Shown here: positions 2,697 through 55,165 of the stretch, piece after piece | How the letters are laid out: the number at the start of each line of letters is the position of its first letter | Position numbering within the stretch: position 1 is the stretch's first letter | Origin: Halopseudomonas laoshanensis | Lineage (GTDB): Bacteria; Pseudomonadota; Gammaproteobacteria; Pseudomonadales; Pseudomonadaceae | Direction of reading: 5' to 3' | NCBI RefSeq assembly: GCF_008365385.1 | Contig: NZ_QOVF01000001.1 | Span: 310,001 to 374,000 of the forward strand | Length of the DNA stretch: 64,000 nt | Notes under the pieces: generated by a model | The model's input: only the letters and a program-made list of their open reading frames with translations | Databases searched by the model: none | Told to the model about the DNA's origin: nothing | Made by a program: the position numbers and the translations under genes

Positions 2697-2700
2697 GCCG

Positions 2701-4756: not shown

Positions 4757-4862
4757 GCGCAGCAGTATAACGGCTGCCTTCGATTGGGTGGAGTGACATT
4801 TCATTTCTGCGTTCGTCAGGCCACCCCGGGGATGGGTATACTGGCGGTTTAGGAGGGTCACC

Positions 4863-5942: not shown

Positions 5943-6188
5943 GCGGTGGCTTGATCCTTTCCAGGGACCCGTTCGTCCTTCTTGTTGGAATAGCAGGCTC
6001 AGACTTGCGTTTCGCCTCCCTCCCAGCCTCGCTCTGTGGTATCCTGTCGGGCTTTAACCGGGTGTCCTGCGGCCCCGCGCTGACTGATCGCTTTCTAGCG
6101 GAAACAGCAGCCCCGCAGAGCCCCTGAGTGCGCCGAATAACTGTTACAGGCATCGTCAGGTTGCCGACAATAAAAGGAATGCCGTTTC

Positions 6189-8834: not shown

Positions 8835-8843
8835 AACGCCGCC

Positions 8844-39056: not shown

Positions 39057-39133
39057 CGGGGTGTAGCGCAGCCTGGTAGCGCGTCTCGTTCGGGACGAGA
39101 AGGTCGCTGGTTCGATTCCAGTCTCCCCGACCA
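39057..39133 (+). tRNA. tRNA-Pro (anticodon CGG), likely integration site
   Basis: 77 nt with a clear cloverleaf. Acceptor CGGGGTG pairs with CTCCCCG apart from one T-T mismatch; the D arm is GCGCAGCCTGGTAGCGC; the anticodon loop TTCGGGA sits in stem TCTCG/CGAGA; the T arm is CTGG-TTCGATT-CCAG; CCA is encoded. A terminator and then an integrase gene follow immediately, the classic layout of a tRNA used as an attachment site. Confidence 0.93.
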
Positions 39134-39246: not shown

Positions 39247-39301
39247 GTGTATGCTGACGTGTATGCTGTAAATATCAATCATTCTTCAAGAGATAGCATA
39301 C
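39247..39301 (+). promoter_or_regulatory. Candidate arm-type repeats upstream of the integrase
   Basis: GTGTATGCTG occurs twice, at 39247-39256 and 39259-39268, 12 bp apart. An inverted partial copy, AGCATAC, lies directly before the integrase ATG. Repeats of this kind beside an int gene can be recombinase/Xis binding sites or an int operator. Confidence 0.4.
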
Positions 39302-40534
39302 ATGAGGCGACAGGATATAAAGCGCAGGCCCTTGTCTGACACGGTTCTCAGTAATCTTGAGCCAGAGCCAAAACTCTACCGCGAGCAGGACGGCAATAAT
39401 CTGTATTTCAAGGTCAAGCCTGATGGCAAGAAGGCCTGGGAGCTGCGTTACAAACGTGCCGACGGTAAATGGAGCTGGCTTGGCCTTGGCATTTATCCCA
39501 GCGTAAGCGGCAGCCGAGCTCGGGAGCTTGCGGAAAAATATCGAAAGCAGATATCTGACGGCCACGATCCTGTAGCGAAGAAAAACCAATTAAAAGCCGA
39601 TCTTAAGAACGTTGCTGAGTCGAGTTTTAAGATGCTCGCCCTGGACTGGTTCGAAGGGAGAAAGGATCGCTGGGGAGAAAGCTACCAAAAAAGAGTGATG
39701 GGAGCTTTTGAACTGCATGTGTTCCCGGTGATGGGTAAACGAGATTTCCGGGAAATAACACCGCTTGAATGGTTCCGTTTTTTTCAAAAAATGCAGAAGA
39801 AGGGCATCCTGGATCAGACAGAGAATGTGCGGCGGTCATGTAGAGGGGTCTACAATCTCGCCAAGGTGACCGGAAGGGTCACGAGCAATCCCGTCGACGG
39901 ACTTGAAGAAGAGCTTTACAAGCACACATCCGAAAACTATCCCCACGTGCCGCCAGCCGATCTGCCTGAATTGGTATACAAAATCAAAGAGATGTCTGAG
40001 GAGAGATTTAGCCCGGAGATCAGATATGGGCTGTCGATCTTAATGCAATTAGCTGTTCGGCCTACTGAATTGCGCGAAGCTCCTTGGTCGGAATTTGATT
40101 TAAAGAAGGCGCTTTGGGAAATTCCCGCAGAACGCAACAAGTCGGGCAGAGCGCTTCTGGTTCCCCTTTCAAAGGAGGTGATGGCTGATCTCCTAGAACT
40201 CAGGAAAATCAGTGGCGGCTATCAGCTTCTTTTCCCTGGTCGGCATGACCAGTCGAAACCATTGAGTAACATGGCTTTCAACATGGCCCTAAGACGGCTT
40301 GGATATGAAGGGCGTCAGGTAGGGCACGGTTTCAGACATGTCATGTCTACATGCCTTAATGAGAACGACTTTAACAAGCAGCATGTCGAAGCACAGCTGA
40401 ACCATTTTGAAAAAGGGGTGGCTGGTAATTACAACAAAGCTATATACATAAAGCAGCGTACAAAGATGATGCAGTGGTATTCGCAGCACCTGCATCAGCT
40501 AGCTGACGGTTATCGATTGACTTGTAATCAGTAG
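39302..40534 (+). CDS. P4-type tyrosine integrase
   Basis: A 410-residue site-specific recombinase. Residues 1-90 form the DUF4102-type arm-binding domain (NLYFKVKPDGKKAWELRYK). A core-binding domain follows, and the catalytic domain is at about 215-390: Arg in VRPTELREAPWSEFD, H-x2-R in GHGFRHVM, a later His in LNHFEKG and the nucleophile Tyr in the NYNKAIY region. It probably integrated the neighbouring accessory DNA at tRNA-Pro, 168 bp upstream. Unusually, its last five sense codons plus the stop are read from a tRNA-Thr fragment. GC is lower than in the upstream core genes. Confidence 0.9.
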   Translation: MRRQDIKRRPLSDTVLSNLEPEPKLYREQDGNNLYFKVKPDGKKAWELRYKRADGKWSWLGLGIYPSVSGSRARELAEKYRKQISDGHDPVAKKNQLKADLKNVAESSFKMLALDWFEGRKDRWGESYQKRVMGAFELHVFPVMGKRDFREITPLEWFRFFQKMQKKGILDQTENVRRSCRGVYNLAKVTGRVTSNPVDGLEEELYKHTSENYPHVPPADLPELVYKIKEMSEERFSPEIRYGLSILMQLAVRPTELREAPWSEFDLKKALWEIPAERNKSGRALLVPLSKEVMADLLELRKISGGYQLLFPGRHDQSKPLSNMAFNMALRRLGYEGRQVGHGFRHVMSTCLNENDFNKQHVEAQLNHFEKGVAGNYNKAIYIKQRTKMMQWYSQHLHQLADGYRLTCNQ

Positions 40535-40565
40535 TTCCCGAGTTCGACTCTTGGTGCCGGCACCA
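40518..40565 (+). pseudogene. 3' fragment of a tRNA-Thr(TGT) gene at the integrase 3' end
   Basis: From TGACTTGTAATCAGTAG to GTGCCGGCACCA the sequence reads as the anticodon loop (CTTGTAA, anticodon TGT), variable region, T arm (CCGAG-TTCGACT-CTTGG) and acceptor 3' strand with CCA of tRNA-Thr. The 5' half is missing. The integrase stop codon TAG lies inside it. It looks like the tRNA half of an att site, not a working tRNA. Confidence 0.7.
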
Positions 40566-40719
40566 GTAAAATCAAAGGCTTGCCTTGTATGGTAGGTCTT
40601 TTTTTTGCTCAAAAATTGGTTTGGGGTAGGAGTTTGACTGTAAGATTTTCAGGGTTAGATAATTTTGCTTACTACTTGCGCGCTCAAAATCTCTGCTTAT
40701 ATCCGAGGAAGCTGATGCC

Positions 40720-40878
40720 ATGATCCAACTGGATTTGAATACAAATGACGCAGAGGCGTTGCTTCGTCACGCAAAGAGCTTCGAGCCTGCCACCGGTGAT
40801 GCTCGGGAGGACAGCCGGCTTTCCGATGCACTTCGTGATTTGGCTGAAGCGATTGAGCAATCGTTGGGTGGGGGATAG
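40720..40878 (+). CDS. Small acidic protein, paralog of the one at 56,629
   Basis: A 52-residue ORF starting MIQLDLNTNDAEALLRHA and ending DALRDLAEAIEQSLGGG. GAGGAA lies about 9 bp before the ATG. It matches the protein at 56629-56790 at most positions (shared DLNTNDAEALLRHA, TGD-RED, DAL-DLAEAIE-SL), while the DNA differs at many third positions, which argues strongly that both are translated. Predicted mostly helical, no signal or metal motif. I do not recognise the family. Confidence 0.7.
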   Translation: MIQLDLNTNDAEALLRHAKSFEPATGDAREDSRLSDALRDLAEAIEQSLGGG

Positions 40879-41275
40879 TCGTCTGCTTCTTTTGCAATGT
40901 ATTAATTCTCTCGATCCGACCGCCTACGTCACTCACACGCTGCGGTAAACTTGGATGTCACAGAGCGAGGGGTTATAGGGCCGTGCAGCGCTAAAAGGCC
41001 ACACGACGCGGGAGATGCTCCCTCAGGTATCTAGAAAGCGGTCTGAACAGGAATTGCGACGGTTGAAGCTAGGCCGTCGCCATTTGGCAAGATAGCCGTC
41101 GGCTAAGGGCTGCTTCCGGCCAATACTGGCCATCAAGTGCTTACCACGGCAAGGGCGATTCAATTGGCCGGTTCCGACAGCCTTATAGCAGCAATCGGGA
41201 TCTCATTTGCTCGCATCGGCTTCTGGCGAGCCTACCCGACCGAGCACTTAAAAGCACTCTTGATTGAAGGGCAAT
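40879..41275. other. Gene-free stretch, 397 bp
   Basis: Between the small ORF and the end of the LysR gene. It contains GGCTGCTTCCGGCCAATACTGGCC-like dispersed repeat sequence near 41107-41130 and no convincing ORF. A 74-codon plus-strand frame at 41137 overlaps the LysR 3' end and has no family look. Confidence 0.4.
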
Positions 41276-42229
41276 TCAGTTCTGCCCATACGGAAGGGAA
41301 ACTGAATCCTCTGGCGAAGCAATCTGAGCGACGAGATAGTCGATTAGTACCCGGCACTTAGGCGAAAGGTATTTGTTCGGCTGGTAGAGTATCCAGGCCA
41401 TGCCAAAGTAGGAGGTCACGTAATGCCATTCTGGCAGAACCTGGACGATACGACTTTCGTTTAGCGCATCCTGGGCCATGAAAAGTGGCAAGCATCCGAT
41501 ACCCAAGTCTTCAAGAACCCCATCCAGCCGCGCCTCACTATGATTGGTCACAAAGCGCCCGGTCACCGTAACATTGACGCTATCGCTGGTCACCTTGTGA
41601 CGAAGCTGCCAGCGATTATCGCTTGGGATTTCTCCGAGATACAAACAGCTATGTCGAGCCAACTCACTGGGATGCTCCGGGACACCATTTGCGGCTAGGT
41701 ATTTCTCGGTTGCACAGAGTACATGGCTGACCTTTTTCAAAGGTCTTGCTGCCAAGCCAAGTGGTGGCATATCGGTGATCTTGATCATGAGATCCAGATC
41801 GTCACCGATCAGGTCCACAGGATTGTCCGTGAGCCTTAGCTGTACGTCGATATCCGGATACAATCTCAAAAAAGCGGGGATGTGAGGCCCCACCAGCTTT
41901 CTTCCGAACGCTTTTGGAACACTCAGCTTTACCAATCCCTGCGGTGTGCTGTTGAAACGAGTCGCTACCTCCATTACTGATTGGCAGGACTCAACCAGGT
42001 GACAGCACCTCACATAAGCCTCGACACCTGCCTCAGACAAGCGAAGCTTTCGTGTTGTGCGCTCGAGCAGCTTGACCGACAACGCCGCTTCCAAACTGGC
42101 CACCTGCCGGCTTACCGCTGAGGATGTGGTACCCAATCGTTCTGCAGCTGCTGAAAAGCTTCCACACTCCACTACCTTCACGAAAACAGCCATGTAGGGC
42201 ATCAGGCCCATATATTGATTCGTTCTCAT
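41276..42229 (-). CDS. LysR family transcriptional regulator
   Basis: About 317 residues. The N-terminal winged HTH (MAVFVKVVECGSFSAAAERLGTTSSAVSRQVASLEAAL) is followed by a LysR substrate-binding domain, with the IGCLPLFMA segment late. ATG 42229 or 42211 gives a LysR-typical N-terminus; a start at 42313 would leave only 20 bp to the divergent gene and lacks a ribosome-binding site. LysR regulators commonly control the gene they face, here the ArgG-like cassette, with the pathway compound or product as likely co-inducer. Confidence 0.88.
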   Translation of the reverse strand: MRTNQYMGLMPYMAVFVKVVECGSFSAAAERLGTTSSAVSRQVASLEAALSVKLLERTTRKLRLSEAGVEAYVRCCHLVESCQSVMEVATRFNSTPQGLVKLSVPKAFGRKLVGPHIPAFLRLYPDIDVQLRLTDNPVDLIGDDLDLMIKITDMPPLGLAARPLKKVSHVLCATEKYLAANGVPEHPSELARHSCLYLGEIPSDNRWQLRHKVTSDSVNVTVTGRFVTNHSEARLDGVLEDLGIGCLPLFMAQDALNESRIVQVLPEWHYVTSYFGMAWILYQPNKYLSPKCRVLIDYLVAQIASPEDSVSLPYGQN

Positions 42230-42333
42230 GGCGCAAAACTCTTGTGTAGGAAACCCGATTGTTCCTTCTTCGCTGCATCCTGACAATGCTTTCTCAGCAG
42301 CGATGGGCTGCATAACGAGCAGAGGGACGTAGC

Positions 42334-43557
42334 ATGGACCATTTCAAGGAAGTACGGAGTCTGGAAGATCTGGAGTATCTGACGGGAAGATGTGAACACG
42401 TTCTCACTTTATTCAGCGGTGGAGTCGATAGCAGCTACCTTCTTTACAAACTGGCGTCATGCTCCTTCAAGGTAACCGCCTTGGCCATTGATCTTGGCGA
42501 TGGGACCAACCTGGAGGATCTGCAGCAGATAGCCCAACATTTTGGGGCCGATTTGCGCGTTGTAGATGGGCGGCGGGCATTCGTTGACGATGCTGTGCTC
42601 CCGGCCATCCAAGCGGGCGCGCAATACATGGGCATTTACCCTATCAGCTCGTCGCTGTCGCGACCGATCATTGCGAAGCTCGCTGTTGACATGGCCGGAC
42701 GGCTTGGCTGCGACGCTATCCTGCACACCGCCAACCAATCTCAGAACAGCTTACGGCGGCTCAATGGCGCCTTAAGGCAACTCCGCTTCGCCGGATATAC
42801 CGGCTCCCCGTATGAGTATTCAGCTTTCAGCCGGGAAGAAAAGATTGCCGCTTTAAGTGCCGCCGGCTTGTACCGTTTTCAGGCCCGGGGGATTAGCGGG
42901 GATGCCAATCTTTGGGTCCGGGAATATGAATCAGGTTGCCTGGATAACCCAGAGAACTTCGTAGCGGCAGAGAGCATTTATAAATGGACGGCCGCGAACC
43001 AGGTCGCTGTTCACGATGAAGTGAAAATATCAATTTTGCAAGGCAGGCCGGTTGCTTTGAATGGGCTCGCCACACCTTTGATCGACATCATAGAGCAACT
43101 GAACCTTATCGCCGGCAGCTTCGGCATAGGTCGATATAGCGGTCTTGAACACCTGCAGGGAGGTGAGAAGGTTCTTGAGGTGCGGGAGGCGCCTGCAGCA
43201 ACGGTTCTGCTGGCAGCCTATCGGCACCTGGAGACAGCCACGCTGGATGCGGAGCTTATCCGTGAAAAGCTTTCAATCGAACAGCTATGGGTCCGAGAAG
43301 CGATCGAGGGTCGGTGGTTCGGAGATCTTCGCCGGGCAGCAAGCGGCTTCATCAGCGAAACCGCAAAACATGTGTCCGGAACGGTGAGCTTTCGTCTCCG
43401 GTCAGGAGCCGCGGACCTATCTTGTATTCGTGCAGAGCAGCCACTCTACCTTACGGATCGGGACCAGTGGGAAAAGGATGTGGCTCGCCAACGGGGATCG
43501 CGCGGCCTGTTTGATCTTCAACTCCCCGCCCCATCAATTTGCGTAGCGACCGCTTAG
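42334..43557 (+). CDS. Divergent argininosuccinate synthase-like ligase
   Basis: A 407-residue protein of the ArgG family. The N-terminal PP-loop ATP pyrophosphatase motif SGGVDSS is at 28-34. YPISSSLSRPIIAK aligns with the YALARPLIAK stretch of ArgG, and the C-terminal half (QGRPVALNG..., EGRWFGDLRRA...) aligns well with ArgG. The aspartate-binding loop, normally TGKGND, reads TANQSQNS at about 132-139, losing the Gly-Lys-Gly and the Asp. It may therefore join a different amine or amino acid to a ureido/carboxyl substrate by the same adenylation chemistry. It heads a three-gene unit with a 2OG dioxygenase and an exporter. GAGGGA precedes the ATG. Unlikely to be the housekeeping ArgG. Confidence 0.8.
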   Translation: MDHFKEVRSLEDLEYLTGRCEHVLTLFSGGVDSSYLLYKLASCSFKVTALAIDLGDGTNLEDLQQIAQHFGADLRVVDGRRAFVDDAVLPAIQAGAQYMGIYPISSSLSRPIIAKLAVDMAGRLGCDAILHTANQSQNSLRRLNGALRQLRFAGYTGSPYEYSAFSREEKIAALSAAGLYRFQARGISGDANLWVREYESGCLDNPENFVAAESIYKWTAANQVAVHDEVKISILQGRPVALNGLATPLIDIIEQLNLIAGSFGIGRYSGLEHLQGGEKVLEVREAPAATVLLAAYRHLETATLDAELIREKLSIEQLWVREAIEGRWFGDLRRAASGFISETAKHVSGTVSFRLRSGAADLSCIRAEQPLYLTDRDQWEKDVARQRGSRGLFDLQLPAPSICVATA

Positions 43558-43566
43558 GAAAACACC

Positions 43567-44328
43567 ATGGATACGGTTGAAATCGAGAAGTCCTCTATAA
43601 AGCTGGACTCGAAAGTAGCGCAAACCTGCGCTGCAGCACTCAAGGACAAAGGCTGGGTTTTCGTGCCTGGCCAACAGTGGAAAAACAGCTTCTCTCTTAG
43701 CCTTGAGCAGTGGTCTGGTTTCGCGGCGTATTGGAACAATCTGATGTTGGACAACCATATGGGGGATAACGGCAAGTACCGATATCGCCGCTATAGCTCG
43801 TTCCAGGTTACACCTAGTACGGGTCGAATTTTACTGAACCCACACGAGCCGTATATGCAGCCAAGATCGGTGAACCCCTTAAACGGCGATACCAAACGAT
43901 ACTATTCGCCTCTTGAGCAGGGGCTCGTCAATCATCCTTTCTTTGAGTCGCTGCTTCTGGGCCTTGGGCGGATCTACGATCAGGCATCGGGCGAAAACGA
44001 AGAATGGAACGTAAAGCTACACCCATACAGAATCCTCGCAGAGGAAAGCTCACCGGGTAAGCCGACACCGGAGGGCTTGCACCGCGACGGAGTGGATTTC
44101 ATTGCGATGATGTTGGTCGACCGGGTAGGGGTTGAGGGCGGGGTCACGACTATAACCGACAGCAACCGAACGTTTCTTTTCTCCAAGACGATGACTTCGC
44201 CAATGGACATCATTCTCGGGGACGATCACAGGGTCATGCATGAAGTGTCAGCGGTTAGCAGCCCTGACCTACCTGGCTATCGTGACGCTCTGGTTATCGC
44301 GTTTGCGCGAGCCATCGCAAATGAATAA
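43567..44328 (+). CDS. 2-oxoglutarate/Fe(II) dioxygenase, amino-acid hydroxylase type (PF10014-like)
   Basis: A 253-residue protein with an iron facial triad His172-x-Asp174 (GLHRDGVDF) and His225 (VMHEVSAV). Arg239 in GYRDALVIAF is positioned to bind 2-oxoglutarate. The pattern matches the 2OG-Fe dioxygenase family that includes free L-isoleucine 4-hydroxylase. It probably hydroxylates a free amino acid or the product of the adjacent ArgG-like ligase. It starts 9 bp after that gene and overlaps the exporter gene by 8 bp, so the three are one operon. Confidence 0.82.
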   Translation: MDTVEIEKSSIKLDSKVAQTCAAALKDKGWVFVPGQQWKNSFSLSLEQWSGFAAYWNNLMLDNHMGDNGKYRYRRYSSFQVTPSTGRILLNPHEPYMQPRSVNPLNGDTKRYYSPLEQGLVNHPFFESLLLGLGRIYDQASGENEEWNVKLHPYRILAEESSPGKPTPEGLHRDGVDFIAMMLVDRVGVEGGVTTITDSNRTFLFSKTMTSPMDIILGDDHRVMHEVSAVSSPDLPGYRDALVIAFARAIANE

Positions 44329-45247
44329 TCTGACCCGGTTATCAAAAATAGTGTTCGCTCGGCATGCGGAATTCATGTTGCTGGCAGTCGCCATTGTCTG
44401 GGGTACCAGCTACGGCGTAGCGAAGGGAGCTCTCGTCTTTTATCCGGTGCTCGGGTTTCTTGCGGTAAGGTTTCTGCTCACGTTTTTGCTGCTTTTACCC
44501 TCGCTCAAGGCCCAACGCCTAAGGGATCTTTTGCCGGGTATACCGCTGGGCCTGGTACTGCTCACGATATTTTTATGCGAAACCTTCGGAGTAGCTATCA
44601 CAACAGCCTCGAATGCTGCCTTCTTGATCAGTCTGTGCGTTGTCTTCACACCATTGGTTGAATGGTGGTTGTTCAGGGTACGCCCGCCTAGCAGCTCTCT
44701 CATTGCCGCAGGCATATCCTTAGCTGGAGCCCTACTGCTCACGCAGGCTGCAGATATCGAAATGAATCTGGGGGACTGTCTGATGATTGCTGCAGCAATA
44801 TGCAGGGCATTCATGGTGTGCCTGACCAAGAGATTCACTCAACACAGCGACGTGTCTGCTTTAGCGCTGACGGCAGTTCAGACCGGCGTAGTCGGGTTGG
44901 GGTGCCTGGTCGCCTTCGCATTGTCTCCGGGCCTGATGCCCGCAATGCCAACAGAGCCGTCGTTCTGGTTCGCAACGATCTACCTGGTGCTGTTCGGAAC
45001 GTTGTTCGCATTTTTTGCGCAAAACTATGCCGTGAAGCGCACAACGCCGACTCGCGCTTCCCTCTTGATGGGGTCTGAGCCGCTTTTTGGGGCCCTGTTT
45101 GCGGGGCTCTGGCTGAGCGAACAGTTGAGCGCTACAGCGTGGCTTGGAGGGATTATGATTGTGGCCGCTTCGGTCTGGGCAAGCTGGCCCCGCAATGAAA
45201 AAACAATACATTTAGAAGTGAAACGCAACAGCTTGGCTGAGCCATAA
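44321..45247 (+). CDS. EamA/DMT family transporter
   Basis: A 308-residue protein with ten predicted membrane helices in two EamA repeats (VWGTSYGVAKGAL in the first, SLLMGSEPLFGALFAGLWLSE in the second). Drug/metabolite transporters of this type often export amino acids and their analogues. As the last gene of the ArgG-like/dioxygenase operon it is a good candidate exporter of the pathway product. ATG 44321 overlaps the dioxygenase end; the open frame before it lies inside that gene. Confidence 0.85.
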   Translation: MNNLTRLSKIVFARHAEFMLLAVAIVWGTSYGVAKGALVFYPVLGFLAVRFLLTFLLLLPSLKAQRLRDLLPGIPLGLVLLTIFLCETFGVAITTASNAAFLISLCVVFTPLVEWWLFRVRPPSSSLIAAGISLAGALLLTQAADIEMNLGDCLMIAAAICRAFMVCLTKRFTQHSDVSALALTAVQTGVVGLGCLVAFALSPGLMPAMPTEPSFWFATIYLVLFGTLFAFFAQNYAVKRTTPTRASLLMGSEPLFGALFAGLWLSEQLSATAWLGGIMIVAASVWASWPRNEKTIHLEVKRNSLAEP

Positions 45248-45269
45248 AGGGCCTTGTTGCTGGGGCTTT

Positions 45270-45291
45270 CTACCCCGACATAAAGGGGTAG
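45270..45291 (+). terminator. Hairpin after the EamA gene
   Basis: CTACCCC-GACATAAA-GGGGTAG, a 7-bp perfect stem 22 bp past the stop. No T-run follows, so terminator function is uncertain. Confidence 0.4.
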
Positions 45292-45733
45292 ATACGCCCC
45301 GCTTCGGGCTGCATGAGTACTTATATTGGGTTATGGCATCAGAGCTTCTGCGGCGTGCGGATCGAATTGCCCGGCTTTGATAAACACACTTCTACGCCCC
45401 CTTCTGACCAAAGGCAGCTTGTTACGACGGGCTGATAACGGCCAGAAGCGGACGTTCAAGATATCTACGAAATCAGGGGCGATTCAGTTTTATGGAGGGT
45501 CACACAGCAATTTCGACTATTGAGACCATCAAAGCTCCAACCCCTAAGCTGGACTTGAGCCTCCATCATTATTTGCGGACCACAACTGTCAACCGTTCAT
45601 CAATAGCCGGCCCACGGCGGTATGTGTATTTCAGGATAAATTCATCAGATCGAATAGTATGCTCTGTGTTGTCCCAAAAAGTCTGCTGCACTTCGCTAGC
45701 TTTCCTAGGTGCGTACAATGAAGGATTGTGCGG
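45292..45733. other. Gene-free stretch, about 440 bp
   Basis: No supported gene between the exporter and the convergent minus-strand gene. It includes AACGGCCAGAAGCGGACGTTC (45439-45459), a sequence type that recurs at 47105-47132 and 54151-54174. Two short plus-strand frames here have no ribosome-binding site or family character. Confidence 0.45.
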
Positions 45734-47008
45734 TTAGAAGGTCTTCATTGGTTCGTCGATGGAGCGGATGCGAAAACAGTCGTCACAGAGCCTGATCGTC
45801 CCTGGTCCAGCCGCTGGGATACTCAAGAGGACATAATCGCGGACCGGTTCATCTGCACAGACAGTGCATACATCCAAACTTTCCGCTGTCCAAATGGCCG
45901 CTTCCGTCATAGCAGCCTGCTTCGGGTTCCATTCGCGCAAAGAAGCGAACCATTCCGGTGTGTGCGGACGGAGTAACGTGGGATGTTCGGGTTCGCGCCG
46001 CCCCCTACGCTCAAGCCAAGTAGTTGCCGTCCTAATACGCCGAGCATGTAGCTCCGTCAAAAGCTCGTACAACTCAATCTTCAGGGCAAAGTACTGACGA
46101 GGGTGCAACGAGTTAACGGTCACGTAGCCCGCGTGATTCTTTATAAAACGGTTTTGGTCCAACCTCTCGTCCGCTAGCAGCTCTTCGCAGTACCTCTGCT
46201 TGCTGTTCGACGAGCCATTGTAGCTCTCCATGACTCCAACGTCGTATTGCCAGGCATTTCTTTTAAACTCATCTTCCCACAGATCCAAATACTTCGAAGT
46301 TCGCAGAGCTTGCACTAAGTAAGCGTCTGCCTCCTGATGCTCCACAAGGTAGGCATCGATGTCATTGAGCGACTCTATCTCAGACGATAGCTTGCGGGCC
46401 TCACGAAGCAAGAGGTTGGTTGCGTCGCGCATAGCCTGGACGTTGTCAATATCCTCACGGCTGAAAGCCTCTTCTTCCGCACTGAGATACCTAAGCACAT
46501 TAGAGACTTCAAAAAGCGCCGAGCTCTTTAGCAACTCCCCGGGATGACAGAAGTCTGCATCCGATACTAGCTTCACTCCGGCTTGGCGATAGGCTTGGGC
46601 GACTAAACGTGAGCAGAACTGCCTCCGGCCGGACCCGAAACCAGCTAACACACTCTTGGCGGCACCGACTGATGTGTATCGAGTTCCAACCGCAGCCCTG
46701 GCGAACGATATGGCGGTGTCCAGTTGATCAGTGGTCAAATGCTTCACAGGCCGAAGCACATATCCAGCGCAGCCCGGTTCAAGAATAAGCCGCACGAGGT
46801 TGCGTGCGTGAACCCCGTCGCCGGTTGAATCGATCACACTCGACCTACCCACACAAATCATCGCGTGAGAGATATCCGCACCGATGACCTTACGAATCGT
46901 TTGGCTCATTGGGTCGGGCGTGGTTGTCAGTACTATATCGCCGAGCTGAATGAGTTCAGAGACGAAAACTCGAGGCCGCAGTTCCGATTCATTTATATCA
47001 GCTTCCAT
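45734..47008 (-). CDS. Papain-like (YiiX/NlpC-type) hydrolase with C-terminal Zn finger
   Basis: A 424-residue protein. The first 150 residues show the circularly permuted papain-fold layout of YiiX/C92-type enzymes: GDIVLTT near residue 23, the His of ISHAMICVG near 48, and the Cys of RRQFCSRLVAQAYRQAG near 135. A helical, charged middle part (170-330) follows, and the C-terminus has CTVC...LCDDC, a four-cysteine zinc site. It could be a peptidase or amidase. It lies 189 bp downstream of the STAND NTPase gene on the same strand and may be its partner or effector. GGAGA precedes the ATG. I do not know this domain combination as a named family. Confidence 0.62.
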   Translation of the reverse strand: MEADINESELRPRVFVSELIQLGDIVLTTTPDPMSQTIRKVIGADISHAMICVGRSSVIDSTGDGVHARNLVRLILEPGCAGYVLRPVKHLTTDQLDTAISFARAAVGTRYTSVGAAKSVLAGFGSGRRQFCSRLVAQAYRQAGVKLVSDADFCHPGELLKSSALFEVSNVLRYLSAEEEAFSREDIDNVQAMRDATNLLLREARKLSSEIESLNDIDAYLVEHQEADAYLVQALRTSKYLDLWEDEFKRNAWQYDVGVMESYNGSSNSKQRYCEELLADERLDQNRFIKNHAGYVTVNSLHPRQYFALKIELYELLTELHARRIRTATTWLERRGRREPEHPTLLRPHTPEWFASLREWNPKQAAMTEAAIWTAESLDVCTVCADEPVRDYVLLSIPAAGPGTIRLCDDCFRIRSIDEPMKTF

Positions 47009-47197: not shown

Positions 47198-49996
47198 TCA
47201 GCCACCATGGCATTTTTTATATTTTAGACCAGAACCACATGGGCATTGCTCATTTCTGCCCACCGCACCAAACAACTGATTGATAGCGGACTTCGACGCT
47301 GTATAGGCGAGTTGAGCAATGTAGTTTGATTGGTTTTCAAGCTCCTGACGCTGCACGCCAGTTAGCCCGTCAACATACGGATCTAAACGTCGCATCTCTG
47401 CAGAGGCATCACCGTGTTGCCCGCATAATGCGAGTATGACCGCATACTGGCTTCGGGTTTGAATCAGCCTGTGTACCAGTCCAGTTTCATTTACAACGCG
47501 TAAAACGTGCTGCTCCATGACCTCCCGGGCACCCTCATAGTCTTTCATTGCGACAAACTCATCAGCTAGGTCCTGCCCAAGTCGCACCATTGACTCCGGA
47601 GCGCCAGCCATATTGTAGAATTTCATCGAATGGATACGGAGAAATGGCGTTGGCTTCCCCAGCGCTTCGCGGACTCTGGCGAGCAACTCCAGTGCGTCAG
47701 CGAGATGTTTGAGATCTTCCTGAACATTCTTTGGACGGTTGATAATTGTCCACAACACATCCGGGTTTTTACCTATTACATCTTGCGGACGGATACCGAG
47801 CAGCTCGTAATAGCCTTCAATAACTTTCCAGCACAACGCTTCCGCTTCTTTGTTCTTTTTTAGCTTCCACAGCGCGATAGCATGGTTATAGTCAAAAATG
47901 CGCTCATGCTCAGAATCCGGTAGTTTGGGCCGGGCTTGATCTACAAGCACCTGAACCTTGCGTGCATCGCGCTCTTCTGTTGCGCACAGTATTCTTTTCA
48001 TCGCATAAGCGATTTCTTCGCGGTGGGTGAATTTGTGCTCGGCGAGGAGCTCACCCATAGCCTCTACCCGCTGAGTAATTTTTTCAGAATGGCCATCTCT
48101 AAGTTCAGAGAAAACAAGCCCATCCAGCGCCCAGAATTTATGAACAGGTTCAAGCGTGTCTGAAATCGATGCGCGCTCCAGGTTTGCTAGTATGTCGACG
48201 GTGATACCCATTTCATAAAACAGCTCTTCGCCGGAAAGTGCGATGAGGGTCATAACGTCGTTGAGCTTGATATAAATCTGGGTTAACAGCGAGAATCTAG
48301 AAGTGTCGCGGGTTTGGTGAAGGCTCTCAACCAAAAGCTCTTTCAAAGCCATCAGTGCGTTATTTGCAACCGCCGGGTCCATAAGCTCTAGGTGCTGCAG
48401 CCCTAGTGCCCTGACGGCGTCATGTACTTTTAGCGTCTGGTACCCAAGCATCTCGACGGTTCCGGTAGCCCGCATCTTTTTGAGCATGGTGGCTGCACCA
48501 CTTTTGGACAAGTCCAGTGAGCTGGCTAGAAGCACTAAAACTTCATCAAGACGCAACCCCACGTCAGCCAGGCTGAACAATGCGAGCGAATCCTGAACTA
48601 ACTTCTCGAATCCCTGATAAACACGGGCTAGGATGATCTCCTGAGCGGTCTCTACGCTATTTTCTTGCTGCTGAAGCTGAGCGCACAGCGCATCAACATC
48701 GCCTTCGTATTCTGAAACCGCAATCTTCGCGGCGCTTTCAACATAGAGCGGCAGACCACCGGTATAAGTCTGCAGTTGCTTGTAGCTTTGGGCGGTGGCA
48801 AAACCTCCCAGATCGTCCACTGCTGCGGCCACCGTATCAATATCCCAGCCCAGAAGTGCCTCGCGCTGTAGGCCCGTAACAGCTTCAAGTTCGCGCACGT
48901 TGTCGTGTGGCTGACACAGCAGGATGAAACGCATGCATTTGGTAGCATTCAGAACATCGCGCAGATTTTCCATAGGAACCCGATGCGCATTATCTAAGAC
49001 AAGCAGCAGGGTGGTCCCTTGCTGATTTAGGAATGTGTCAAACGTTCTAAGGGCCTCGTAGCCGCTGGCACCCGGGAGCAGGATTTTCCGCAGGCCATCC
49101 TGACCCGGGGTTGCAAATTTCGCTGCCAGCTCACGAACTAGTGTGCTGGCCAGTGCAGTGCCTGGGAGGTCACCGATGTCATAGTAGGCGCACAGCTCGG
49201 TGTAGTGCAGAGCAGAATGCGCTGCCCACGCCGTCTTGCCTGCGCCGGATAAACCGCAAATGATGCGTACACGCTTGTCGGACTCAAGAGATGGCTCCAG
49301 TTTCTGTGGTCTGTAGAATGCTGGGGGCGCGGGAAAATCTTGTAACTGAACGATCAACTGTTCAAATAGCGCAGGAAGGTCTTTGGCGTGAAACGCATGC
49401 TGTTTATTTGGGATGCTTCCTGTGGCAGCAAGCTGCGCCAGTCCGGCCAGCTTCCAGATCAGTGAGTCCGGGCGCAGCAATGAAAAGCTCAGCTTCTCCG
49501 CTTCAGCTGTACACCATATCACTGCGTCAGGTATTGACTCCCACGCGGGCGGGAGTGCCGGATGGCGTTCAGAGGTAGACAGGGGCCAAATGAAAAGAAC
49601 ATCAGAGGGCAGTTTCTTAGCATCGATAGTCTGCTGGAGCTGCGCGCTTGGTGACTCGTTCGCAACGATAACAAAGGAAGCCTGGCCGTTACGCTTCCCC
49701 TCAGCATGCTCTTTTCTCAACGCATCAAAGCGATCTAGAGCGCCCGCAATATCGCTGGGTATGATTGGCTTAGAACGAGTTTTAACCTGCACATAGATTC
49801 TCTCCTGCTCGGTAGAAAGCTCAATATCCTCATCAAGTTCAACCATCACCACATCAATGCCGGCCGTCTGCGCCAATAGCAAACAACCGACCGCATAGAG
49901 ATGCTGATATAAAAAGCCTCTGTGTACCGCTTCAATGCGTACTAGCTGAGCGGCATCCAAGACATATGTGGTGTTTCTTTCATCACTTCCCTGCAC
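47198..49996 (-). CDS. STAND NTPase with Cap4-like nuclease domain and SEC-C tail
   Basis: A 932-residue protein. Residues 20-170 look like a DUF4297/Cap4-type PD-(D/E)xK DNA endonuclease: HRGFLYQ at 25-31, acidic ELDEDIE at 53-59, and the QVK catalytic motif at 70-72. A P-loop STAND ATPase follows, with Walker A GLSGAGKT at 248-255 and Walker B LLLVLDNAH at 330-338. The rest is helical and TPR-like, ending in a SEC-C zinc motif (NEQCPCGSGLKYKKC, about 915-930). Nuclease-STAND-repeat proteins of this kind (Avs/NLR-like) sense phage products and then cut DNA; that role here is inference. The start is GTG with AGGGG upstream. It is shorter than typical Avs2-4. Confidence 0.78.
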   Translation of the reverse strand: MQGSDERNTTYVLDAAQLVRIEAVHRGFLYQHLYAVGCLLLAQTAGIDVVMVELDEDIELSTEQERIYVQVKTRSKPIIPSDIAGALDRFDALRKEHAEGKRNGQASFVIVANESPSAQLQQTIDAKKLPSDVLFIWPLSTSERHPALPPAWESIPDAVIWCTAEAEKLSFSLLRPDSLIWKLAGLAQLAATGSIPNKQHAFHAKDLPALFEQLIVQLQDFPAPPAFYRPQKLEPSLESDKRVRIICGLSGAGKTAWAAHSALHYTELCAYYDIGDLPGTALASTLVRELAAKFATPGQDGLRKILLPGASGYEALRTFDTFLNQQGTTLLLVLDNAHRVPMENLRDVLNATKCMRFILLCQPHDNVRELEAVTGLQREALLGWDIDTVAAAVDDLGGFATAQSYKQLQTYTGGLPLYVESAAKIAVSEYEGDVDALCAQLQQQENSVETAQEIILARVYQGFEKLVQDSLALFSLADVGLRLDEVLVLLASSLDLSKSGAATMLKKMRATGTVEMLGYQTLKVHDAVRALGLQHLELMDPAVANNALMALKELLVESLHQTRDTSRFSLLTQIYIKLNDVMTLIALSGEELFYEMGITVDILANLERASISDTLEPVHKFWALDGLVFSELRDGHSEKITQRVEAMGELLAEHKFTHREEIAYAMKRILCATEERDARKVQVLVDQARPKLPDSEHERIFDYNHAIALWKLKKNKEAEALCWKVIEGYYELLGIRPQDVIGKNPDVLWTIINRPKNVQEDLKHLADALELLARVREALGKPTPFLRIHSMKFYNMAGAPESMVRLGQDLADEFVAMKDYEGAREVMEQHVLRVVNETGLVHRLIQTRSQYAVILALCGQHGDASAEMRRLDPYVDGLTGVQRQELENQSNYIAQLAYTASKSAINQLFGAVGRNEQCPCGSGLKYKKCHGG

Positions 49997-50239: not shown

Positions 50240-52195
50240 TCATTTCGCCGATTCTGAAGGCCAGTCTTCTGGAACTAGCGCGGGTGGCTTGGTCCACGGA
50301 TCTTCAACCAAAGCTTCTTGGAACCACTGCTCGCGCAAGTTTGCATGTTCAGTAATGATTAGTTGAAAACCTGGAACCTCTTCTTGAGTGAACTTCAGCA
50401 ACAACTCGAATAGCCGGCGAACCGCATTGAGGTCGGCGTCGGCTTCCGTCTTCTGCACCGAACCGTCAGCATCCTGGTAAACTTGCTCAGAAGGAAAGTA
50501 AACCTGGGTTGGTTGGTCAATCAGCAGGAAACGTGGGATTGGTCGATTGTTCTGCACCGCGAATAGGTGAAGGGCGAGTAGTGCAGACAGATGGTACGCC
50601 AGATGGTTTTCGCCGCCGCCGGTCCTGCCCATAGGTACTGGGCGCTCGGGCCGATCAAAAATAATCGTCAGTTGAGGCAGACTTAGCCGCGCGGGGTAAG
50701 GACCGAATTCGGCGTGAAACTTCTGGATGTATCGTGACATCTGCGCGGAGATGTTGTTGAGGATCGACGTTAGGCGTTCGTTACTGTCATCCGTCCCGAT
50801 TTGCTCCTCAAGTTGCTTGACCTTGTTGTTAAGGCGGCGACCCTCAGCTTCTAGATTAGCAATATCCTCATTTGGAAGAAGCGTTTCCAGGAACAGGCTG
50901 ATACGGCCGACTACGCGTGCTGCAGCATTATTGCGCGAGCCCATCTTGGCGAGAAGTTCGTTGGCTGAGATCGCCGAGGACAACTCCACTTCCTTCTGCT
51001 TGATTTCATCTTTGATTGCGTCCACGGTGCCGGCCAGTTCCGTCAAGTAGGCTTCGAGCTTAGGACGTTGGCCAGTGGCGACGCGCAACTCCTTGTCGAG
51101 CGATGCCAGTTCGTTGAGAAGGACAACGGCAACTGGGGATCCTAACCCCAGGTTCTTCTCGCTGAACGGCCATTGCCATTCCCCGCTGTCTGGATTCTTC
51201 GGCAGGGCTTTGATCGACGCCAACCGGTCTATCTGTTCGGCGGCCTCATTTTCGTAGCCGCCCGAGCGTTCGGCAAACTGTCGCGCCGCATCAATCCTGG
51301 CCTGGGCGTCCCGGCGATTGCGGCGCAACTGGACAAGTTCCTCTTCCAGAATCGAAATCCGGCTGCCATCGTCGTCAGGTACCGTTTCGGGCTTCCAAGA
51401 CAGCGCAGACCTCAATAGCTCTATGATCCCGCCTGCATTGAGATTCTCGTCGGTGGTGCCAATGACCCCGACTGTCTTTGCTTCCGAATAGAGGCCGATC
51501 GCCTGCACATGCGATGTATCAACGGCGCCGCGTGCCAGTTCCAGTTTCTTCTGGTTAACCTTTAGATCCCGCTGCGCCAAGCGCAACTTGGACTCTAGTT
51601 CGTAGCGGTCGCTGGACGAGACGCCGAGTAGGATCGGTAACGTGTCACGGATCGCCTGCGGTTGGAACTGCTCGTTCTGCCGGTAGAAAAGTTGGTCTTT
51701 GTTGGCGACCAACCCTTGTTTCTGGAACAGGTAGTAGAACGTGTGCTTAACGTTGGCGTCGTAGCTGTTGCGACTATGCCCCAGCGCGACTTCGGTGCGG
51801 TTCTCGGGAATGCCGAGCAGGCGCGACAACAGTTCGACGACGCTTTCATCGTCAGTGTTAATTGCCAAGTCCTTAAACTCGGGGGCTTGCAATTGGGCGC
51901 CTCTGCGTAGCATTGCCGTACTGCAACTAGCGCCGCTACCAGAAGGGGTTGGTTTTGCAACCAGCACCTGCTCCTTCTCGAACTGGTAGATAACTGCGAA
52001 CCAGGCCACCTTGTCACGAATGATGCCCTCGGGGACGTTGAACGAAGATCGCCCCATGCAGTATTCGATGATTTCTGAAAGTGCAGATTTGCCGGTGGAG
52101 GAACGACCGGTGATGACGTTGAGTCCGTCTACCTTGAATATGAGGTCACGACGCTGGCCATCATGGCTGTAAATATGGATGGATCTGATCTTCAT
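50240..52195 (-). CDS. ABC-3C system ATPase (DUF3732, SMC/Rad50-like)
   Basis: A 651-residue ABC-class ATPase. Walker A is GRSSTGKSAL at 30-39. Two coiled-coil stretches (about 205-330 and 360-480) separate it from the signature-like GGGENHLAYHLSALLAL and Walker B RFLLIDQP near 555, then the ITEH switch. This split-head, coiled-coil layout with DUF3732 is the ATPase of ABC-three-component systems. Its ATG overlaps the stop of the middle-component gene by 4 bp. Third gene of the operon 53900-50240. Proposed to sense or process DNA and trigger the nuclease-bearing partner. Confidence 0.85.
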   Translation of the reverse strand: MKIRSIHIYSHDGQRRDLIFKVDGLNVITGRSSTGKSALSEIIEYCMGRSSFNVPEGIIRDKVAWFAVIYQFEKEQVLVAKPTPSGSGASCSTAMLRRGAQLQAPEFKDLAINTDDESVVELLSRLLGIPENRTEVALGHSRNSYDANVKHTFYYLFQKQGLVANKDQLFYRQNEQFQPQAIRDTLPILLGVSSSDRYELESKLRLAQRDLKVNQKKLELARGAVDTSHVQAIGLYSEAKTVGVIGTTDENLNAGGIIELLRSALSWKPETVPDDDGSRISILEEELVQLRRNRRDAQARIDAARQFAERSGGYENEAAEQIDRLASIKALPKNPDSGEWQWPFSEKNLGLGSPVAVVLLNELASLDKELRVATGQRPKLEAYLTELAGTVDAIKDEIKQKEVELSSAISANELLAKMGSRNNAAARVVGRISLFLETLLPNEDIANLEAEGRRLNNKVKQLEEQIGTDDSNERLTSILNNISAQMSRYIQKFHAEFGPYPARLSLPQLTIIFDRPERPVPMGRTGGGENHLAYHLSALLALHLFAVQNNRPIPRFLLIDQPTQVYFPSEQVYQDADGSVQKTEADADLNAVRRLFELLLKFTQEEVPGFQLIITEHANLREQWFQEALVEDPWTKPPALVPEDWPSESAK

Positions 52196-52680
52196 GGGCG
52201 AATCCCGAAAGTCGTGTAAACGGTCGCCCGGTCGGCGATACGTGCGAATTCCCTTCCTACGACGCGCGCCACTTTCTGGCAGGCGACGGTTTCGGCAGTT
52301 CCATCGACGGACTTACGTACTTTCTTGGGCACGGTTCGAATGCGTCCATCATCCGCGACGGCGATGCAGCCCCTTTCCATCAGAAGACCGAACCCCTCGA
52401 AGGCATAGGGGAGCATTTCCGTGACCCGGTCGGGGAAGCCCATCATGATTTGTTGGTTCTTCTCGACGGTCTTGAGTAGATAGCTGCGTGGGCTGCTGGC
52501 GATCACCTCTCGTGAGTCCTTGTGCAGGCTTAAGGGCAGCACGAGAAGCGACATCGAGAAGGGCATGCCGCGGTCGTCTTCTTCTTCGTAGCCGGCAAGG
52601 GCGCGAAATATGACTAAGCCACAGAACGCCGGGTTGAATAGGTTTCGAACCTCGAATGGGCGATGATCCCATCGCTTCAC
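52192..52680 (-). CDS. ABC-3C system middle component
   Basis: A 162-residue small helical protein of the three-component ABC system middle-component type. It begins WDHRPFEVRNLFNPAFCGLVIFRALAGY, with MPFSMSLLVLPLSLHKDSRE after it. The family is thought to link the ATPase to the third component. The start is GTG, overlapping the upstream gene's stop (GTGA); its own stop overlaps the ATPase ATG. No catalytic motif is visible. Confidence 0.8.
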   Translation of the reverse strand: MKRWDHRPFEVRNLFNPAFCGLVIFRALAGYEEEDDRGMPFSMSLLVLPLSLHKDSREVIASSPRSYLLKTVEKNQQIMMGFPDRVTEMLPYAFEGFGLLMERGCIAVADDGRIRTVPKKVRKSVDGTAETVACQKVARVVGREFARIADRATVYTTFGIRP

Positions 52681-53900
52681 GATGCCACCTCCAGTACGTT
52701 GTCAAGACGGTCAAGGAATCTGGGATGCCAGTACACTCTGGGCTGGGGAGTACTGTCGGCCAATATGTGGAAGCTTCCACGAAGGACGTAGGGCTCCGTC
52801 ACCCGCGCACGAATTCGCAGGGACTCTATCTTCCCGGTTTCAAATTCCGCCCAATTGTAAAGTTCAGCGCCGGCTTGGCGAAGCGCATCTTCCGCGCTGT
52901 CGTCCCCCAGTCTCTCGAAAATGACATCCTTATAGCGGTCCCACTCATCGGCCAAGCGATTCTCGTAATCCTCGACCTCTCCCAGCACAAGAAGGCTTTC
53001 GCGAGCCCAGGCCGACCGTTGTTCGAACGCCCGGTAATAGTCCAAGATCGCATTCCTGATTCGGTTAGCTGAAATGCCGATCTCGCGCAGCTGCGCCACG
53101 AACAGGCGCGGATCCGCAGAGATGTCGATGTTGTCGGAGGGAAGTTTTCCGCGGAAGGTGATAGGCAGGTTGTCCGCCTTATACTCCTCGGCGAAGTTCG
53201 AGAGCTTGTCCGATACTTCGTAGCCAAAAATTCCTTCCGGCCTAGTGCCCGTCAGCTGCTTGATCACGACATCCGTCCACCAGCCTTCCAGCCGCTCGAA
53301 AACGAACTCTCGGTGCTCACGCCGGATGCTTCGCATGTGCTTGTCCCTTATGAGCACAGGAATGTCACCGATGCGCGGGCTGCTATCGAAGATCAGGATA
53401 CGCTCGAGGAAATCCTGCTTTTCGGTATCATTCAGTTCCTCGAACGCCGCAGAAATCGGAGCGATGAGTTTCGATGTCGATGCCGAAAGTGCCTTTTTGG
53501 CCAATTCAGTCAGAGTTTCTTCATCGTCGGAGGGGGTGGGCTGATTGGAAAGAAGACGGGATAGGAACGAGTCGGCCGACACCTTGCCGGTTGTGAATAG
53601 GAAGAACCGCAGGTTCGATGCAGCGCGGCCATCACATTTGTACCGCACCAACCAGATATTGACGGACTTCCAGAAGTCGGTCGACAGATCAGTCAGCCTG
53701 TCACCGATTGCCTTGTGCTTGAGTGAGCCCAAAGACTTGACGCCTTTGCGGTCGATAAAATCGAGGTCGTCATCCTTTTCTAGGAAAATGGACGTGTCCT
53801 CCGGCAGCTGGAGCAAATGGAGTAGAGCGAGACGCGCCTGATAGATGTATCCCAGGCCTTGCTCGCCGGCTGAGAACTTGTCGGTAGATGTCCCGGCCAT
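52677..53900 (-). CDS. ABC-3C system component with nuclease-like N-terminus
   Basis: A 407-residue first gene of the operon. Residues 12-70 read GEQGLGYIYQARLALLHLL, then EKDDDLDF and SLKHKA: the pattern of Cap4/DUF4297-like restriction-endonuclease-fold domains (an acidic cluster near 41-47, then Lys at 61). The C-terminal part (from about 230) is the ABC-3C C-terminal domain. It is probably the effector of the system. AAGGAC lies 7 bp before the ATG. The three genes overlap by 4 bp each, so they are expected in fixed ratio. Confidence 0.75.
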   Translation of the reverse strand: MAGTSTDKFSAGEQGLGYIYQARLALLHLLQLPEDTSIFLEKDDDLDFIDRKGVKSLGSLKHKAIGDRLTDLSTDFWKSVNIWLVRYKCDGRAASNLRFFLFTTGKVSADSFLSRLLSNQPTPSDDEETLTELAKKALSASTSKLIAPISAAFEELNDTEKQDFLERILIFDSSPRIGDIPVLIRDKHMRSIRREHREFVFERLEGWWTDVVIKQLTGTRPEGIFGYEVSDKLSNFAEEYKADNLPITFRGKLPSDNIDISADPRLFVAQLREIGISANRIRNAILDYYRAFEQRSAWARESLLVLGEVEDYENRLADEWDRYKDVIFERLGDDSAEDALRQAGAELYNWAEFETGKIESLRIRARVTEPYVLRGSFHILADSTPQPRVYWHPRFLDRLDNVLEVAS

Positions 53901-54517: not shown

Positions 54518-55165
54518 ATGCCGCAGTCTAGTCGTAAGGCCATTGCTGAATTGATCATGCAAAATATTCCTCGTGATCTCCTGCTGGGCATCGATGAAGG
54601 CCTGAATGTGGGAGCCGCTCGTGCTTTTACTGCGGCCAAAGCCATGCACAGTGGCCATGTCAAACATGCAGTTGGCCAAATGCGTAGTTTCCATATGAAC
54701 GAGACGTTCAACGAGGCACTGATCGCCAGTGGAGCGGACTCCACTCCGATCAAGGGTAACAGCCTTGTTATCGGGCGTTCCGGTATGCTGACTTTGGCTC
54801 GTTTCAACGTATCCGCTCGTACTTGGAATAACGGCCGTCGTAGCGCAATGCGACGCCAGCTTGCCCAGGCAAACCAAGCCATTGAACAACTGGTTCAGCC
54901 TGGCCTTTTCTCACCGACGCCGATTACCGGAGCGAGCGTTTTCTTTGTGGCATCGTTTAGTGGTTCTATGTCGTTTGAGCCCGAGTCTCCGCAAACGATC
55001 TACATTGCCGTGCCTGACAAAGACATGAAATCCTGGATTTTCCAAGAGCCGCTCGCCAGCTTCTGCTCTCGCTACTTTGAGGTCGAGAATCCTGTTCAAC
55101 AAGACATGGCTCAACCTAAACTCAAGCCGGGCGTGGCAGCGGAAACTCGGAAAAATCAATCATGA
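54518..55165 (+). CDS. Unknown protein paired with an ImmA/IrrE regulator
   Basis: A 215-residue soluble protein I do not recognise. It has no signal peptide or membrane segment. A helical first half (DLLLGIDEGLNVGAARAFT...) is followed by GNSLVIGRSGMLTLARFNVS and a basic stretch RRSAMRRQLAQANQAIEQL. It overlaps the next gene by 4 bp (ATGA), so the two are coupled. The pair resembles toxin/antitoxin-peptidase modules in layout, which would make this the toxin or the peptidase target; that is inference only. Confidence 0.7.
   Translation: MPQSSRKAIAELIMQNIPRDLLLGIDEGLNVGAARAFTAAKAMHSGHVKHAVGQMRSFHMNETFNEALIASGADSTPIKGNSLVIGRSGMLTLARFNVSARTWNNGRRSAMRRQLAQANQAIEQLVQPGLFSPTPITGASVFFVASFSGSMSFEPESPQTIYIAVPDKDMKSWIFQEPLASFCSRYFEVENPVQQDMAQPKLKPGVAAETRKNQS

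Follow-up and report, generated by a model that had tools for sequence, protein, structure and literature searches.

Within a 64,000-nucleotide stretch of the Halopseudomonas laoshanensis genome (contig NZ_QOVF01000001.1, positions 310,001 to 374,000; hereafter the window, with coordinates counted from its first letter), we analysed a cassette of four genes: a LysR-type regulator, an ArgG-like ligase, a PF10014 oxygenase and an EamA-family exporter. Its features are the following.

41276..42229, minus strand: LysR-type regulator, 317 residues from an MRTNQ start (the longest open reading frame reaches 42313), with Pfam HTH_1 and LysR_substrate domains
42334..43557, plus strand: ArgG-like ligase of 407 residues, a predicted ATP-dependent nitrile synthetase of the ArtA type according to NF038212, PDB and fold searches, residues and tree
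42727..42750, plus strand: TANQSQNS loop (ligase residues 132-139) replacing the aspartate-binding TGKGND loop; Q137 corresponds to Q146 of ArtA
43567..44328, plus strand: PF10014 Fe(II)/2-oxoglutarate oxygenase, 253 residues, Pfam score 200.6 bits, with H172/D174/H225 and R239
44321..45247, plus strand: EamA/DMT-family exporter, 308 residues, Pfam EamA score 119 bits
42231..42245, no strand assigned: candidate regulator box (GCGCAA-N5-TTGT), just ahead of the LysR start codon

Reading frames confirmed the arrangement, with the LysR gene divergent from the ligase, oxygenase and EamA genes, and Pfam scans detected the N- and C-terminal ArgG domains in the ligase as well as the 2OG-Fe_Oxy_2, EamA and LysR domains. 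Nine base pairs separate the ligase stop (43557) from the oxygenase start (43567), while the oxygenase stop (44328) and the EamA start codon (ATG at 44321) overlap by 8 bp. A preliminary description of this DNA had reported the gap, the overlap, the altered loop, the PP-loop and the iron triad, and all of these statements hold; its interval (42229-45247) covers the operon genes and omits the body of the LysR gene (41276-42229, minus strand). The four-gene operon is real, and the proposal that it is a coherent unit of biosynthesis and export is supported.

The ligase scored below the cut-offs of two ArgG equivalog models (220.8 bits, cut-off 334; 209.8 bits, cut-off 268.2) and above that of NCBIfam NF038212 (argG_rel, 'argininosuccinate synthase-related protein'; 586.7 bits, cut-off 425). 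Nor is it the only argG copy of the organism: an ordinary ArgG, which keeps the HGATGKGND loop, is encoded on contig C1 (834012-835226) and exceeded both equivalog cut-offs (643 bits with PRK00509, whose cut-off is 334). A maximum-likelihood tree of 40 rows, built without six Collimonas rows, placed the 12 ArgG sequences in a clade of their own (100/100). Judged by its sequence, the ligase is not an argininosuccinate synthase, and the model scores and the tree bear out the preliminary description on this point. The protein does retain the ArgG fold, the PP-loop and six of eight citrulline-pocket positions. The Pfam ArgG domains and the label 'argininosuccinate synthase-related', the only one that NCBI gives the homologues, could be taken to indicate a diverged or spare argininosuccinate synthase in arginine metabolism. 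However, the aspartate pocket is replaced throughout the family, the intact ArgG resides in the same genome and the cassette partners are unrelated to arginine synthesis; given also the separate clade and the scores under the ArgG cut-offs, we regard a spare enzyme as highly improbable.

The closest match of the ligase among solved structures is ArtA. A phmmer search against the PDB returned ArtA (9lei, 9leh) with an E-value of 2e-92, compared with 1.7e-45 for the best ArgG. An AlphaFold2 model built from 27 sequences (mean predicted local distance difference test score, pLDDT, 89.4) gave the same order in a fold search: ArtA came first (E-value 1e-42, template modelling score 0.88, 44% identity) and ArgG next (E-value 2.6e-32, 29% identity). 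In the tree, ArtA was nested in the argG_rel clade with three alphaproteobacterial-type members (100/100), including plasmid genes of Rhizobium and Agrobacterium vitis. The characterised enzyme is thus bracketed by cassette genes, with several other forks within the argG_rel clade weak or unresolved. ArtA and NitB are named together as nitrile synthetases in PMC13060819, which credits an 'argininosuccinate synthetase-like enzyme' to Zeng et al. 2025 and also cites Kishimoto et al. 2025 on ArtA; by these citations, nitrile synthetases of this kind have been in print since 2025. According to the same text, QueC/ToyM, PesC and CalN also activate an amide with ATP on the way to a nitrile, but they belong to other enzyme families and their substrates are a nucleoside base, a peptide C terminus and a polyketide.

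The likeness to ArtA extends from the common clade and the 44% identity in the fold match to single residues. Q146, S197 and D199 are described as the key amide-contact residues of ArtA (PMC13060819, in part). We fixed the ArtA numbering with a script run on PDB alignments, in which offsets 20-39 were tested and a single offset, 29, placed Q, S and D at positions 146, 197 and 199; these residues correspond to Q137, S188 and D190 in the window ligase. Both proteins have lost the aspartate loop, and both carry the same glutamate and arginine replacements in the citrulline pocket. What distinguishes the window gene is its place in a compact cassette with PF10014 and EamA genes, ArtA having been compared as a protein only.

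The PP-loop of the ligase (SGGVDSS) is intact. For the ligand-binding positions of ArgG we used the UniProt/HAMAP assignments in Thermus numbering. On this basis the citrulline positions Y84, S89, N120, R124, S173 and E258 are kept as Y102, S107, N138, R142, S188 and E272, whereas the aspartate positions T116 and D121 have become N134 and S139. The aspartate site is lost, as the preliminary description had proposed from the loop, and it is lost throughout the family. Among 32 aligned members, N134, S136, N138, R142, S188, D190, E197 and R284 were invariant; Q137 was found in 31 (one H), position 135 was Q in 28, position 139 was S in 25 and T in seven, and E272 was replaced by D in two. With a family signature of HTAN-x-S-[QH]-N-[ST], the TANQSQNS loop is, by this alignment, a conserved mark of the family and no peculiarity of the window copy.

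We then compared the neighbourhoods of 25 ligase loci from GTDB species genomes, seven of them from Collimonas and hence partly non-independent, with neighbours identified by tblastn. An Actinomadura locus (L027) was kept in these denominators, and a distant Streptomyces locus (L062) was excluded from the cassette members. PF10014 genes accompanied the ligase in 22 loci, EamA genes in 21 and divergent LysR genes in 17; the PF10014-bearing loci include those of Collimonas, Pseudomonas, Prodigiosinella, Franconibacter, Azohydromonas, Pseudothauera, a Colwellia bin and Sorangium. In a separate search of 398 genomes of the phylum, with loci fetched together with roughly 1.5 kb to either side, five genomes exceeded the argG_rel cut-off, the window's own included. 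PF10014 and EamA genes adjoined all five of these argG_rel genes, versus none of 25 ArgG-type loci below the cut-off. The association of ligase, oxygenase and EamA protein is well beyond chance.

Plasmids gave a similar picture. Sixteen plasmid records matched, eight of them argG_rel-like (45-64% identity), and among the five of these eight loci that were examined all had PF10014 and three an EamA match. On the plasmids of Rhizobium sp. NXC24 and Agrobacterium vitis, which are predicted to be conjugative, the order is exporter, ligase, oxygenase. The Bradyrhizobium locus has PF10014 without an exporter match, the Vibrio halioticoli locus combines LysR, EamA and PF10014, and in Burkholderia cenocepacia (L061) ligase and PF10014 are separated by a TauD gene and followed by genes resembling non-ribosomal peptide synthetases (NRPS-like). 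The co-occurrence of ligase and oxygenase, on which the preliminary description depended, is found in the GTDB species genomes and on plasmids. The distance matrices of the two proteins were correlated as well (Mantel r 0.45; none of 10,000 permutations gave a value as high) across 23 loci, after L004, L007, L014, L006, L008, L010 and L012 had been dropped as near-duplicates; this correlation is moderate and allows for some reshuffling of ligase and oxygenase. We found no published description of the bacterial cassette, its spread or a nitrile amino-acid product, in a search that left most subscription literature outside and does not prove absence.

ArgG adenylates the ureido oxygen of citrulline, which is then attacked by aspartate. 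By homology, the site in which ArgG holds the ureido group of citrulline would, in the window ligase, take up the side-chain amide of an amino acid, most simply glutamine, else asparagine or a hydroxylated form, and the enzyme would adenylate the amide oxygen with ATP. Since the aspartate site is gone, AMP would leave and a nitrile would form, with no second amino acid added. From these lines of comparison, the ligase is very probably a nitrile synthetase. The preliminary description had instead expected an amidine- or guanidine-type product made with a non-aspartate co-substrate. Its exclusion of aspartate stands, the pocket being lost, while a co-substrate is not needed. A ligase that joins an adenylated ureido or amide group to an amine other than aspartate would be in keeping with the ArgG fold and with the retention of most of the citrulline pocket, and amines can trap activated amides. 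Moreover, the auranomides, which come from the fungus that yields auranthine, bear a pyrrolidin-2-iminium ring, so that an amidine might arise by cyclisation of a nitrile or an activated amide. Against this, ArtA, which belongs to the same clade and has the same amide-contact residues, is described as carrying out the amide-to-nitrile step only, and among the 25 loci the cassette has no conserved gene that would supply a co-substrate. We consider an amidine or guanidine ligase improbable.

The nitrile synthetase would act together with the oxygenase, and the preliminary description had expected the latter to hydroxylate a free amino acid. The iron triad (H172-x-D174, H225) and the final arginine (R239) are present and invariant across 26 aligned relatives, an alignment from which the Collimonas near-duplicates with PF10014 (L006, L008, L010 and L012) were left out. 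The structural model (pLDDT 93.7) has the double-stranded beta-helix fold, with 3pl0, 8w8h, HrmJ, BelL and IDO as best matches in a fold search and no more than 31% identity there to any solved PF10014 member. By phmmer against the PDB, 3pl0 was nearest (140 bits). The closest relatives with a name were HrmJ (103 bits for 9dqp, 87 for 9dq0) and BelL (87 bits, 8jms), whereas the isoleucine hydroxylase IDO scored 25 bits; the model of HilB, likewise an isoleucine hydroxylase, gave 34.5 bits (cut-off 350). Rows of SARS-CoV-2 spike in this search (E-values 0.002 to 0.9) were dismissed as chance.

According to PMC10764440, the PF10014 relatives HrmJ and BelL take free amino acids that bear an electron-withdrawing group and convert 6-nitronorleucine into a cyclopropane, and TqaL, which matches the window oxygenase more distantly by fold, makes an aziridine from valine. 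For other members of PF10014 the reaction is a hydroxylation at C4, of Leu, Ile and Thr (PMC3684760). With HrmJ/BelL and IDO/HilB, all of which act on free amino acids, the window oxygenase shares fold, iron triad and 2-oxoglutarate arginine; it differs from HrmJ/BelL in being partnered with a predicted nitrile synthetase instead of a nitro-forming enzyme. As it scores nearer HrmJ/BelL than IDO, we rejected hydroxylation as a certainty. A nitrile synthetase combined with an oxygenase that turns the nitrile amino acid into a cyclopropane or aziridine would fit the higher phmmer scores with HrmJ and BelL than with IDO or the HilB model, and it would recall the electron-withdrawing nitro group on the BelL/HrmJ substrate (PMC10764440). 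On the other side, the nearest relative, 3pl0, is an uncharacterised protein, BelL's proposed nitronate route requires a C-H far more acidic than one adjacent to a nitrile, and hydroxylation is the default outcome in the superfamily. Ring closure is thus unlikely, if worth keeping in view, and the oxygenase is likely to hydroxylate. In the proposed pathway, it would hydroxylate or ring-close the amino acid in a second step, which may also come before the first.

The Hil/IDO operons offer a close comparison for the architecture of such a cassette: in PMC3684760 they combine a LysR regulator with a PF10014 enzyme acting on a free amino acid and, in some cases, an RhtA-type exporter, and an antimicrobial role has been proposed for them. 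But 'argininosuccinate' occurs 0 times in that part of the source, and HilA, HilC and HilP are lacking from the window cassette. In a third step, the EamA protein would export the product. With the model TIGR00950 (carboxylate/amino acid/amine transporter) it scored 85.9 bits, under the cut-off of 230.2, and we rejected an assignment as amino-acid exporter by model score. The 317-residue LysR frame is found with an identical MRTNQ start in a congener (G410). The box upstream of it was read by eye from 12 upstream regions and then searched as a pattern, which matched in seven other homologous loci, of 17 with a divergent LysR. Within the window there were two matches (the other, at 15815, is unrelated) versus 0.27 expected, and 2 of 100 shuffles reached this number. 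The box is a candidate regulator site, and these counts are descriptive, since the pattern was derived from these very loci. Inspection of the 12 upstream regions for T-N11-A LysR boxes yielded two weak ones only.

We put the probability that this LysR-linked, horizontally exchanged cassette makes and exports a nitrile-bearing amino acid at about 0.7. What the data show directly is gene content, conserved residues, position in the tree, co-occurrence, purifying selection and mobility; activity, substrate, product and role are inferred. The product is probably an exported free amino acid; that the substrate is glutamine itself is a more tentative proposal, to which we give somewhat less than even odds. 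Free glutamine would yield L-2-amino-4-cyanobutanoate (L-cyanohomoalanine), a methionine analogue.

Several points weigh against this reading. Two citrulline-pocket positions are changed (S182 to E197 and Y270 to R284), both also in ArtA; with the longer side chains of E and R, the pocket would be suited to something shorter than citrulline, for instance glutamine. In the ligase model, residues 181-190, to which S188 and D190 belong, average a pLDDT of 63 and are the least certain internal part, so that the geometry there rests on the alignment. The 44% identity to ArtA allows a different amide, and the substrate of ArtA, as far as the accessible text goes, may be free glutamine or a larger compound. 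PF10014 is absent from three of the 25 loci (two from Burkholderia and one from Actinomadura, with a split-looking ligase gene), and the cargo of the EamA protein is a guess, given a TIGR00950 score so far under the cut-off. The product may differ between loci, with those of Salmonella (L022) and B. cenocepacia (L061) lying beside NRPS-like genes. In the literature we found no assay of any bacterial cassette member. L-cyanohomoalanine, moreover, is non-toxic to Escherichia coli and poorly incorporated, according to the accessible part of PMC13320846.

The same partial source describes L-cyanohomoalanine as native to Chromobacteria and weakly accepted by the methionyl-tRNA synthetase of E. coli. 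Given the missing toxicity, an antimetabolite role of the plain compound is not supported; any competitive or antimetabolite role would require either the action of the oxygenase or a different target. Signalling, or use as a building block, would be just as possible.

The variant loci suggest that a nitrile amino acid may also be usable as a peptide building block. In Salmonella enterica subsp. diarizonae (L022), the ligase gene and a diverged PF10014 gene (36% identity) are flanked by an NRPS-like gene, called from adenylation motifs, and by a seryl-tRNA synthetase gene (7998-9386; 476 bits, cut-off 302), which is possibly a self-protection copy or a biosynthetic enzyme; a gene resembling a phosphopantetheinyl transferase by eye comes next. 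In B. cenocepacia, ligase and PF10014 occur with genes for TauD, acyl-AMP ligase, NRPS-like proteins, serine hydroxymethyltransferase (457 bits, cut-off 335) and penicillin amidase. Divergent from the ligase in that locus (2365-6950) lie the last two and a protein without Pfam match, which by eye resembles the FAA-hydrolase-like gene adjoining the ligase in two Burkholderia loci (L016 and L021). These two have no PF10014 match near the ligase; their neighbours, for which family scans were run on L016 only, encode a major facilitator superfamily protein (by eye), an FAA-hydrolase, an aldehyde dehydrogenase, a sulfopyruvate-decarboxylase-like protein (below cut-off) and PhyH. Adenylation codes of the NRPS genes, read by eye, looked threonine-like for the first B. 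cenocepacia domain and serine- and glycine-like for Salmonella; we set them aside as a substrate clue, as too weak.

Two further loci lie at the margin of the family. In Actinomadura sp. CNU-125 (L027, 6001-7145), the ligase homologue is in two pieces in different frames, maybe broken or a sequencing error, with a gene upstream that resembles argC by eye. A plasmid of Streptomyces sp. BB1-1-1 carries a more distant ArgG-like gene (L062, 9986-11269; 35% identity), which overlaps the gene of a TauD dioxygenase. Genes for an acyl carrier protein, a carbamoyltransferase and condensation domains belong to the same cluster, and the ArgG-like protein may have yet another activity that is not that of ArgG.

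A bolder version of the proposal, which we consider a long shot, is a portable two-enzyme pathway to an undescribed class of exported nitrile amino acids, in which the ligase would make a cyano amino acid from free Gln or Asn and the PF10014 enzyme would act on the carbon next to the nitrile, giving a small ring in the manner of HrmJ/BelL or a cyanohydrin. If true, the cyano amino acid itself would be harmless and would become active through the oxygenase. The cyanohydrin variant could break down to aldehyde and cyanide, which would be a new bacterial route of cyanogenesis from an amide nitrogen. The seryl-tRNA synthetase in Salmonella diarizonae and the serine hydroxymethyltransferase in B. 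cenocepacia, each beside an NRPS version, would then hint at serine-like product targets.

As to how the cassette reached its place, three further features bear on it.

39057..39133, plus strand: tRNA-Pro(CGG) found with ARAGORN, probable integration site of an island
39302..40534, plus strand: tyrosine integrase of the island, with Pfam Arm-DNA-bind_3 and Phage_integrase domains
41192..45342, no strand assigned: exchanged block of about 4.15 kb, 89% identical to the congener G410 by blastn and inverted relative to the integrase

The tRNA gene precedes the integrase gene, which lies 741 bp from the end of the LysR gene. G+C content is 0.505 at 40001-42000 and 0.543 at 42001-44000, lower than in most of the upstream chromosome, where 15 of 19 two-kilobase intervals before 38000 range from 0.55 to 0.60. 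A genome-wide search with a 25-mer (up to two mismatches) found no second copy of the tRNA-Pro 3' end, which leaves the island end unmarked. At an E-value of 1e-60 or better, the ligase gene was present in two of 37 genomes of the genus, the window's own and that of the congener. There, the stretch around the integrase (39285-41121) is 97% identical by blastn, while the cassette stands inverted behind four open reading frames that resemble transposases by eye. By this comparison, the cassette is an exchangeable unit of about 4.15 kb that has moved horizontally. Ratios of nonsynonymous to synonymous substitution against the congener were 0.057 for LysR, 0.071 for the ligase, 0.102 for the oxygenase and 0.071 for EamA, which indicates purifying selection on the cassette. 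Farther on, a gene without Pfam match and a short gene of the phage-integrase family (58241-60890, plus strand) have counterparts in the island of the congener, in another order and with 67-70% nucleotide identity in pieces.

Other genes near the cassette include candidate defence functions. On the minus strand (50240-53900), PADLOC matched LmuB (439 bits), LmuC (47 bits) and LmuA (240 bits), which we take to be a Lamassu-type defence system. An RmrT/RmrA-like pair (73 and 425 bits; 54518-56364, plus strand) is a further candidate system by PADLOC, and by eye its RmrA-like protein has a helix-turn-helix part and a protease-like HELGH motif. A 932-residue protein (47198-49996, minus strand) that weakly matches Cap4-nuclease (27.9 bits), AAA_22 and SEC-C, and LmuA at 23 bits near its N-terminus, is possibly another defence gene. 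Downstream of the cassette, on the opposite strand (45734-47008, minus), lies a 424-residue protein with a match to Peptidase_C92, a permuted papain-like amidase (41 bits).

If the reading of the cassette is true, one of the few types of ATP-dependent nitrile-forming enzyme would be no rarity but part of a compact cassette that occurs in alpha-, beta- and gammaproteobacteria as well as in a myxobacterium. In the window a genomic island carries it, and elsewhere it travels with plasmids that are predicted to be conjugative. It would explain a protein that databases label 'argininosuccinate synthase-related', and it would illustrate how a ligase may turn into a dehydratase through the loss of its second substrate site. 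The cassette would then stand for a class of exported nitrile amino acids, which is open to testing.

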